Source: Nitrospira sp. bin75
Lineage (GTDB): Bacteria > Nitrospirota > Nitrospiria > Nitrospirales > UBA8639
Reading direction: 5' to 3'
Assembly: GCA_002238765.1 (NCBI GenBank)
Contig: MPMZ01000030.1
Location: 1 to 35,086 of the forward strand
DNA: 35,086 bases
Positions 3,507 to 7,068 of the stretch are shown in pieces. Numbering within the stretch: the first letter of the stretch is position 1; every line of letters starts with the position of its first letter. The notes under the pieces were generated by a model, which saw nothing but the letters and a program-made list of their open reading frames with translations, searched no databases and had not been told where the DNA came from. Position numbers and translations under genes: made by a program.

Positions 3507-3923
3507 TCATGCGTCGCCCACACGTTCTAAGGCTTTCCGGGCAGTCACGACCGGAATGCCTTCCACCTCTCCGAGCGCGAGCACGTGTTTCTTTTCACCG
3601 GAGACAATCAAGTCGGCCCTCCCGGTAATTGCCGCGGCCAAAATCTGGTTGTCTTTGGGATCGGGAGACAGATCTACAGCCAGCGGGGCCTCAAGAATAA
3701 GGGCGCGCGTGTCGATGTTTTCGACAATGGCTGCTACTTCAGCGGCGTCAAGAAACTTTTGCAGACGGGGGCGGGCGAGAACCTCGGCGATCTCGGCTAT
3801 TTGCGCAGTGGACGTGACAAGCTCAATCTCACCACGCAACCATGCCCGATACAGCCTGTCCGGCGGGGTGCCCTTGGTGATAAGCGCGCCAATGAAGATG
3901 TTGGTATCAAGAACGACCCGCAC
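3507..3923 (-). CDS. PIN-domain toxin (COG1569-like)
   Basis: Probable Mg-dependent ribonuclease toxin of a type II toxin-antitoxin pair. The 138-residue protein opens with VVLDTNIFIGAL, the first acidic strand of PIN domains (Asp6). It has a central IAEVLARPRL helix and a C-terminal DPKDNQILAAA motif carrying the second acidic cluster, followed by ADLIVSGEKKHVL. This pattern fits the putative PIN toxin family COG1569. The GTG start at 3923 lies inside the end of the upstream ribbon-helix-helix gene, with 17 bases of overlap, so the two are probably translationally coupled. RNA target specificity cannot be read from the sequence. Confidence 0.85.
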   Translation of the reverse strand: MRVVLDTNIFIGALITKGTPPDRLYRAWLRGEIELVTSTAQIAEIAEVLARPRLQKFLDAAEVAAIVENIDTRALILEAPLAVDLSPDPKDNQILAAAITGRADLIVSGEKKHVLALGEVEGIPVVTARKALERVGDA

Positions 3924-4143
3924 GCGCGGCGTCCACTTCCTCAGCGATCAAGTCGAAGATTTTCTGCTGGTCATGTCGGGCATGACGGTTCTTGATCTCG
4001 TGAACGGTAAGGTCCAACACGTGGCGGCGCACGGCTTCATCGACGAACCGGGAGAGATCGCCCTTCTTGCCGCCGGTGCGCGCAAGAAAGGTACGAATCG
4101 CCTGATCCGTCTTTTCAGGAATCGAGAGGTTCCATCTAGTCAT
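3907..4143 (-). CDS. Ribbon-helix-helix antitoxin of the PIN pair
   Basis: Probable DNA-binding antitoxin that neutralises the adjacent PIN protein. From the ATG at 4143 the protein is 78 residues. It starts MTRWNLSIPEKTDQAIRTFL, the strand-helix pattern of ribbon-helix-helix repressors, followed by a KKGDLSRFVDEAVRRHVL helix pair and a charged C-terminal tail that would wrap the toxin. The frame extends 13 codons upstream to 4182, but that longer form would run through the palindrome at 4166-4179. The 4143 start has an AGGGA ribosome site about 8 bases away, so I prefer it. The overlap with the toxin gene supports a two-gene operon. Confidence 0.8.
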   Translation of the reverse strand: MTRWNLSIPEKTDQAIRTFLARTGGKKGDLSRFVDEAVRRHVLDLTVHEIKNRHARHDQQKIFDLIAEEVDAARAGRS

Positions 4144-4165
4144 GGGAAATCCCTGCGCATAGACA

Positions 4166-4179
4166 CATAAACGTTTATG
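4166..4179. promoter_or_regulatory. Perfect 14-base palindrome, candidate antitoxin operator
   Basis: CATAAACGTTTATG is a perfect palindrome 23 bases upstream of the antitoxin ATG. Ribbon-helix-helix antitoxins usually repress their own operon by binding such palindromes, so this is the natural operator candidate. The binding itself is inferred. Confidence 0.55.
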
Positions 4180-4247
4180 CACACATCATTACCGCATATT
4201 GGCTCGTGCCGTCAATTCCTTGTATTTGCACGAGAACGCATCGCATT

Positions 4248-4420
4248 GCTATGGGTGCTATGTTATTGCTATGTTTTTGCTATATTGTTGCTATATTGTT
4301 GCTATATTGTTGCTATATTGTTGCTATATTGTTGCTATGCGTGCTATGACTTTGCTATGATTTGATGCTCAATTGCTATCTTTTGCTATGACTTGCTATG
4401 GTTAGCGATGATTTTGCTAT
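4248..4420. repeat. Helically phased GCTAT array (15 exact copies)
   Basis: GCTAT begins at 4248, 4257, 4268, 4279, 4290, 4301, 4312, 4323, 4334, 4343, 4354, 4375, 4385, 4395 and 4416. Degenerate members sit at 4367 (GCTC) and 4405 (GCGAT). Sixteen steps cover 168 bases, a mean of 10.5 bases, which is one turn of B-DNA. The central part (4279-4338) is a regular 11-base tandem repeat, TTGCTATATTG. The outer copies keep only TTGCTAT and the phase. The array fills the divergent region between the toxin-antitoxin operon and the winged-helix gene at 4484 and is much more AT-rich than its surroundings. All copies face the same way. It encodes no credible protein. Confidence 0.9.
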
Positions 4421-4483
4421 GTCATGTAGAACCACCCCCTCAGCAGGGGTAGAGACCACGTCGACTGATTGGGAGGAGAAGCG

Positions 4484-4930
4484 ATGTCTGACGAGACGCA
4501 GAACGATGCCGGTATGGATGCGTATCGCAAGGTCTTGAAAGACCTGGAAAGAAGAAAAAGCGTCATCGACGCGGCCATTGCCGGGATGCTGGCGTTAATG
4601 GGAGAAAGTGAAACGGCGTTGCAGGCTTGTCTGCCGGCTGCCCTTTCCACTAGGCAAGAGCCCGGTCATGTCGAGTCCGATTCATTTGCCCATCTGACGT
4701 TAACCGAAGCCGCCCAACGCTATCTGGCGATGGCGAACCAGCCCCAATCCACTGCCGAAATTGCGGCAGCCCTTCAACAAAGAGGGTACCCCACCGAATC
4801 CCGTAATTTCAGAAATACCGTCAGGTCGGTCCTGGACCGGCACGCCAAAACCGTGGGGGACATCGTGAAAGTTCAAAAGAACTGGGGGTTGGCCGAGTGG
4901 TACCGGGACGGAGGCGAGGCAGGAGATTGA
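4484..4930 (+). CDS. Small winged-helix protein (HARE-HTH-like)
   Basis: A 148-residue protein with two visible parts. Residues 8-45 form a charged helical segment (MDAYRKVLKDLERRKSVIDA) that could be a coiled coil. Residues 70-140 form a likely winged helix: LTLTEAAQRYLAMANQPQST, then AEIAAALQQRGYPTES, a long helix, then IVKVQKNWGLAEWY. The pattern 'helix, low-complexity turn, eI..aL...G, V...L, F/V.kv...W.L' resembles HARE-HTH domains. These occur in DNA-linked proteins such as the RNA polymerase delta subunit and restriction-associated factors. The ATG at 4484 follows a strong GGGAGGAG site (4471-4478); the frame also opens at a TTG at 4469, which would include that site. The phased array lies just upstream, making this protein a candidate binder of it. 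Function is otherwise unknown. Confidence 0.75.
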   Translation: MSDETQNDAGMDAYRKVLKDLERRKSVIDAAIAGMLALMGESETALQACLPAALSTRQEPGHVESDSFAHLTLTEAAQRYLAMANQPQSTAEIAAALQQRGYPTESRNFRNTVRSVLDRHAKTVGDIVKVQKNWGLAEWYRDGGEAGD

Positions 4931-4959: not shown

Positions 4960-4976
4960 AATTTGTTTAGAAAATA

Positions 4977-7068
<2,092 letters not shown>

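Follow-up and report, generated by a model that had tools for sequence, protein, structure and literature searches.

The GCTATG array at positions 4248 to 4420 of the window (i.e., the whole 35,086-nucleotide stretch of DNA that we analyzed) is, as judged by comparison with related genomes, one of many dispersed arrays and not a local operator. Among 14 related genomes of one Nitrospirales genus of nitrite-oxidizing sponge symbionts, such arrays recur between genes, their units are locked in phase at 10.45 bp, and they are present or absent jointly with the gene that starts at position 4484, each intact copy of which has an array. The product of this gene (the 4484 protein) is presumed to be the array-binding protein. 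The initial annotation had described a helically phased GCTAT array with a plausible winged-helix binder encoded just downstream; this observation was right and larger in extent than noted, with the phasing and the gene linkage shown by comparison. The window's genome (G000; 3.04 Mb in 115 contigs) probably belongs to "Ca. Nitrosymbion" (GTDB bin75), whose members live mostly in association with sponges (PMC11812461).

A recount of the window array confirmed 15 exact and two degenerate GCTAT copies running in one direction with a mean step of 10.5 bp (168 bp over 16 turns). The exact copies, all on the plus strand, start at 4248, 4257, 4268, 4279, 4290, 4301, 4312, 4323, 4334, 4343, 4354, 4375, 4385, 4395, and 4416. 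The steps reported earlier (8 and 9 against 11 and 13) were inexact; those between exact copies are 9, 11 (seven times), 9, 11, 21, 10, 10, and 21 bp, and both 21-bp gaps are filled by in-phase degenerate units. The features of the array and its gene are as follows.

4248 to 4420, plus strand: GCTATG array of 15 exact GCTAT copies and two degenerate units, covering 16 helical turns.
4239 to 4253, plus strand: left cap CATCGCATTGCTATG, an imperfect inverted copy facing the first unit.
4268 to 4338, plus strand: core of near-identical 11-bp units (TTGCTATATTG).
4364 to 4368, plus strand: degenerate in-phase unit GATGC, read from the sequence.
4405 to 4409, plus strand: degenerate in-phase unit GCGAT.
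4484 to 4930, plus strand: gene for a 148-amino-acid protein with a predicted N-terminal helix/coiled coil, a linker, and a C-terminal HARE-HTH-like winged helix.

GCGAT is the commonest form of degenerate unit across the genus. The element CAT(A/C)GCATT before the first unit occurs in most of the 4484 gene's own arrays and in a dispersed subfamily. An inverted unit caps the right end of most arrays at this gene but not that of the window array. An inverted repeat, CCCCCTCAGCAGGGG (4435 to 4450, plus strand), lies between the window array and the start codon, where a GCATAGC...GCTATG dyad closes the array in most relatives. The core, a near-perfect 11-mer tandem, is probably a recent slippage expansion; it drifts by no more than 2 bp from a 10.5-bp grid, and the offset is made up downstream.

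The triple pattern GCTAT-N4-6-GCTAT-N4-6-GCTAT has 10 overlapping matches in the window array versus none in 100 dinucleotide-preserving shuffles, and it occurs 24 times in G000 (3.0 Mb), which contains no match to the reversed control pattern. The window array alone does not demonstrate helical phasing, as 76% of step shuffles were at least as coherent. We therefore dropped the argument from the single array and used pooled arrays instead.

We gathered 75 distinct arrays of at least five exact words each, holding 753 copies, and their best pooled period was 10.45 bp. Short steps are made up by long ones (adjacent-step correlation, r = -0.42): a 9-bp step is mostly followed by one of 11 or 12 bp, and a 12-bp step mostly by one of 9 or 10 bp. 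Observed and expected counts of step pairs were 0 versus 4.5 for 9-9, 40 versus 18 for 9-11, and 0 versus 13 for 12-11. None of 200 within-array shuffles was as coherent as the real arrays, removal of duplicated spacer pairs gave r = -0.425 (permutation standard deviation, 0.05), and the variance of position at two turns was 0.66 versus 1.06 for a random walk (i.e., growth about half as fast). The word is preceded by T at -1 in 92% of copies and followed by G at +5 in 79%, while the spacers are weakly conserved; the kept word is TGCTATG, and a unit is approximately TGCTATG plus 3 to 5 variable bases. A kept word, varying spacers, and phase compensation are together a signature of sequence-specific contacts on one face of B-DNA. 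At the level of sequence comparison, the arrays of the genus prove the phasing that the single array does not, and copies in relatives are not out of phase: the period is conserved with real compensation, as the earlier claim of helical phasing implied.

The initial annotation had also held that phasing argues against replication slippage; this part failed for the window array and stood for the pooled arrays of the genus. Plain slippage without function would account for the near-identical 11-mers of the window core and for the variation in copy number between species, and slippage is likely the source of new units. As a full account it was rejected on the negative step correlation and the reduced variance, and we regard it as extremely improbable: the steps compensate around 10.45 bp in the 75 arrays, also after removal of duplicate spacer pairs, the word is kept while the spacers vary, and the arrays are restricted to genomes with one gene. 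Intrinsic bending by phased A/T tracts, with no specific protein, is almost as improbable. The units are T rich and phased at the helical repeat, but a run of at least four A or T bases occurs in only 25% of them and a run of five in 9%, and it is TGCTATG that is conserved, not the T run. A phased A-tract curvature element, which would have an A/T tract of at least four bases in most turns, was rejected on the same 25% of units.

Triple counts (steps of 9 to 11 bp) ranged from 13 to 80 in the eight genomes that carry the 4484 gene and from 0 to 3 in the other six, while the reversed control triple was found in no genome of the genus examined. Arrays of at least five copies numbered 4, 3, 7, 16, 10, 11, 12, and 10 in the genomes with the gene and 1, 1, 0, 0, 0, and 0 in those without it. 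Outside the genus (396 genomes of the phylum), the triple occurred from zero times to chance level except in G188 and G154. In these two genomes, which belong to other families, GCTATAAAC repeats at several places with a 9-bp period, and we rejected these repeats as being of a different kind.

The relatives also bear on the proposal that arrays should stand next to homologues of the 148-residue protein. All eight intact close homologues have a same-orientation array directly upstream, which ends about 40 to 65 bp before the start codon. The earlier expectation that homologues would not lack an array held for these eight close homologues. No GCTAT array was found upstream of distant homologues elsewhere in the phylum (G189, G051, and G184) or of a second homologue on G000:C115. 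The gene is absent from G002, G004, G006, G007, and G010, and G009 retains a 47-amino-acid remnant of it at the nadA-thiC locus, which is empty in G004 and G006. A tree made from the same stretch of thiC nucleotides in every genome places the losses on at least three branches. There are exceptions to the linkage: a single array persists in each of two genomes that lack the gene (G004 and G010), and G001, which carries it, has only three arrays. In the purE array of G004, the sixth-position G is found in one of seven units versus 590 of 737 elsewhere (p = 4e-4), as expected, at this one locus, for decay after the binder was gone. Since the 14 genomes are related, the co-occurrence represents fewer independent events than it appears to. 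The case for the 4484 protein as the putative binder is strengthened by the way in which gene and arrays are gained and lost in step.

Alternatively, another DNA-binding protein of the genus with the same distribution could be the binder, and the 4484 gene just one of its targets. The arrays flank many unrelated genes, and two genomes that lack the gene still have one array, as this would predict; however, the array by the 4484 gene is the one found in all eight genomes with an intact gene, and array number drops with the loss of that gene on several branches. We consider a different binder quite unlikely and retain the 4484 protein as the candidate.

Purifying selection acts on both domains of this protein (dN/dS, approximately 0.2 in the helix and the winged helix-turn-helix and 0.55 in the linker). 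Its best match in Pfam and NCBIfam scans was HARE-HTH (PF05066), below threshold in all eight members (best E value, 5e-5; window protein, 21.7 bits versus the Pfam curated cutoff of 25.9); the scans gave no MerR/BldC family and no transposase or nuclease family, including no tyrosine (Y1) transposase. Neither the AlphaFold model of the full-length protein (pLDDT, 47) nor the AF2 model of its C-terminal domain (pLDDT, 61) was good enough to assign a fold; the latter has three HTH-like helices and had weak winged-helix chain matches (Z < 5). Foldseek with the predicted model gave no match at E < 0.001 (VIA rows, Z < 5), a PDB sequence search returned nothing significant, and the viral contigs searched contained no relative. 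A second protein of the same type, 30% identical, is encoded in the window's genome at L010 (G000:C115:162093-162404, minus strand), without an array.

The most instructive likeness is to BldC of Streptomyces, a small winged-helix protein that binds cooperatively and head to tail on direct repeats of variable number (PMC5859096, PMC6428758). The arrays studied here likewise consist of direct repeats in one direction, about one helical turn apart and variable in number, and BldC also has many sites, including its own gene, and a proposed link to architectural proteins. However, BldC is a MerR-like protein of 68 amino acids without a coiled coil, whereas the 4484 protein combines an N-terminal helix with a HARE-HTH-like domain and, as far as its sequence tells, is not a member of the BldC family. 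The solved BldC sites have 2 to 4 repeats with a loose AT-rich consensus, whereas the arrays here have up to 16 units of exact TGCTATG, and many of them, unlike BldC sites, lie away from promoters.

In the TubR/tubC and ParR/parC systems, a small DNA-binding protein (a winged helix in TubR) occupies iterons, arranged as direct repeats, that precede its own gene, and TubR forms a filament on the iterons and represses its operon (PMC5016525). Those systems have one or a few sites per plasmid by a motor gene, whereas we found 3 to 16 chromosomal arrays per genome and no adjacent motor NTPase gene of the plasmid centromere type (the neighbors are nadA and thiC). RdfS and lambda Xis are winged-helix proteins that polymerize head to tail on DNA, with the N-terminal helix of RdfS adding oligomerization (PMC11963761). 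These proteins serve the excision of mobile elements, whereas no integrase or attachment site is present here, and no consensus word is apparent for RdfS, unlike for the TGCTATG arrays. The 4484 protein may, by analogy, behave as BldC, RdfS, and TubR do. Our search of the open-access literature, which was not exhaustive, found no described system that matches.

Our favored reading, which we hold to be fairly probable, is that the 4484 protein binds cooperatively along one face of the DNA to coat the arrays, that it regulates its own gene, and that the filament it forms has an architectural or regulatory role at many loci. Since arrays are common only where the gene is kept and the gene has its own array at its start, they have the appearance of a system dedicated to coating by a protein. 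The window array would belong to a genus-wide set of binding platforms, directional and phased with the helix, and would be the member at the founding locus. The C-terminal winged helix would contact each unit, one per turn of B-DNA, and the N-terminal helix would touch neighboring molecules, giving a head-to-tail nucleoprotein filament comparable to that of BldC; the array at the 4484 gene would then provide autoregulation. We infer the binding, the filament, the autoregulation, and the cellular role alike from the patterns of arrays and gene. Long phased arrays also amount to a natural experiment in how proteins bind DNA cooperatively, in which the genomes report the spacing that a filament tolerates (i.e., 9 to 12 bp, balanced to 10.45 bp). 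Because the gene and the arrays are gained and lost jointly, a single protein and a single DNA fragment would suffice to test directly what an array does in the chromosome, although the hosts are uncultured.

All 75 arrays lie outside genes as called by our own simple codon-usage gene caller. Where both neighbors were called, 20 arrays lie between divergent genes, 28 between tandem genes, and 13 between convergent genes. They occupy many unrelated loci, and some orthologous sites recur between species with the orientation kept. The recurrent sites, with gene names assigned by reading the encoded proteins, are the following.

nuoF/purE, in eight genomes.
xthA/pyruvoyl arginine decarboxylase (PvlArgDC), convergent, in seven genomes.
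Further recurrent sites: rhomboid/DHH, DUF1015, and a type I methylase-like gene.

The promoter core of purE (TTGTAA-N17-TACACT) is conserved, and the last unit of the array stands 43 to 44 bp before the conserved -35 box in seven gene-carrying genomes and 53 bp before it in G004; no array is present at this site in G001, G006, G009, G010, G002, and G007. At some promoters, such as that of purE, the array-bound protein may be a regulator. The xthA array takes up the few bases that separate two convergent stop codons, which makes a promoter role unlikely there, and the mixture of divergent, tandem, and convergent contexts by unrelated genes does not fit a simple promoter regulon. The intergenic arrays other than that of the 4484 gene may instead be local architectural elements that bend, stiffen, or insulate DNA. 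Such a role is favored over a simple regulon because the flanked genes have unrelated functions and some sites are convergent; this preference is the weakest step of the proposed mechanism.

About one-third of the arrays have flanks in common at nonorthologous loci, on the left and/or the right (e.g., AACGAAGGAGACAAAAGGCTTGT before the array and GTTCCGCAAAGCGGGCGGACAACGGGG after it), which indicates that some arrays spread as copied modules. Right flanks of approximately 80 bp (GTTCCGCAAAGCGGGCGGACAACGGGGAGGAACAGGACAC...) are common to L055, L081, L095, L097, L100, L109, L112, and others, and the arrays that have them have two kinds of left flank. The arrays could thus be selfish or mobile repeat modules similar to REPINs, with the 4484 gene aiding their spread or merely carrying the founding copy and the phasing reflecting binding for copying, not a host function. 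As in REPIN/RAYT systems (PMC8049555), the repeats are dispersed between genes, linked to one vertically inherited single-copy gene, and scarcer where that gene has been lost. RAYTs, however, are tyrosine transposases and REPINs are paired palindromes, whereas the arrays here are directional and phased and the 4484 protein matches no transposase or nuclease. Moreover, compensating steps keep the units in phase, and the purE, xthA, and rhomboid/DHH sites have unique flanks and keep their position and orientation from one species to the next while the spacers turn over, which suggests retention in place. We consider the selfish-module explanation unlikely and continue to favor coating of the arrays by the 4484 protein.

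Twenty-one array sites were placed by their flanking genes on the complete G010 chromosome (G010:C1), and at 16 of them the array is oriented opposite to the replication fork that starts at dnaA (p = 0.027). In 24 of 32 locus groups, the sequence read in array orientation has a negative GC skew (p = 0.007). Both biases are suggestive only, because the positions are inferred and the origin is dnaA based. A broader possibility, which we put forward tentatively and hold to be rather doubtful, is a chromosome-architecture system in which the small winged-helix protein would polymerize on many oriented, phased intergenic arrays, mostly against replication, with arrays copied as modules and the set decaying upon loss of the gene (i.e., a single-gene nucleoid organizer gained and lost within one symbiont genus).

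In the window, a toxin-antitoxin pair lies upstream of the array; nadA is a further neighbor, and the riboswitch-thiC unit lies downstream. The pair, which is VapBC-like (RHH_6 antitoxin-like and PIN_3 toxin-like; 3507 to 4182, minus strand), adjoins the array; it was rejected as a partner of the array, as other genes are found there in relatives, and we judge it to be an incidental neighbor. The array was also rejected as an RNA element, since Rfam finds only a TPP riboswitch (72 bits; 4970 to 5073, plus strand), which is located directly after the 4484 gene and before thiC.
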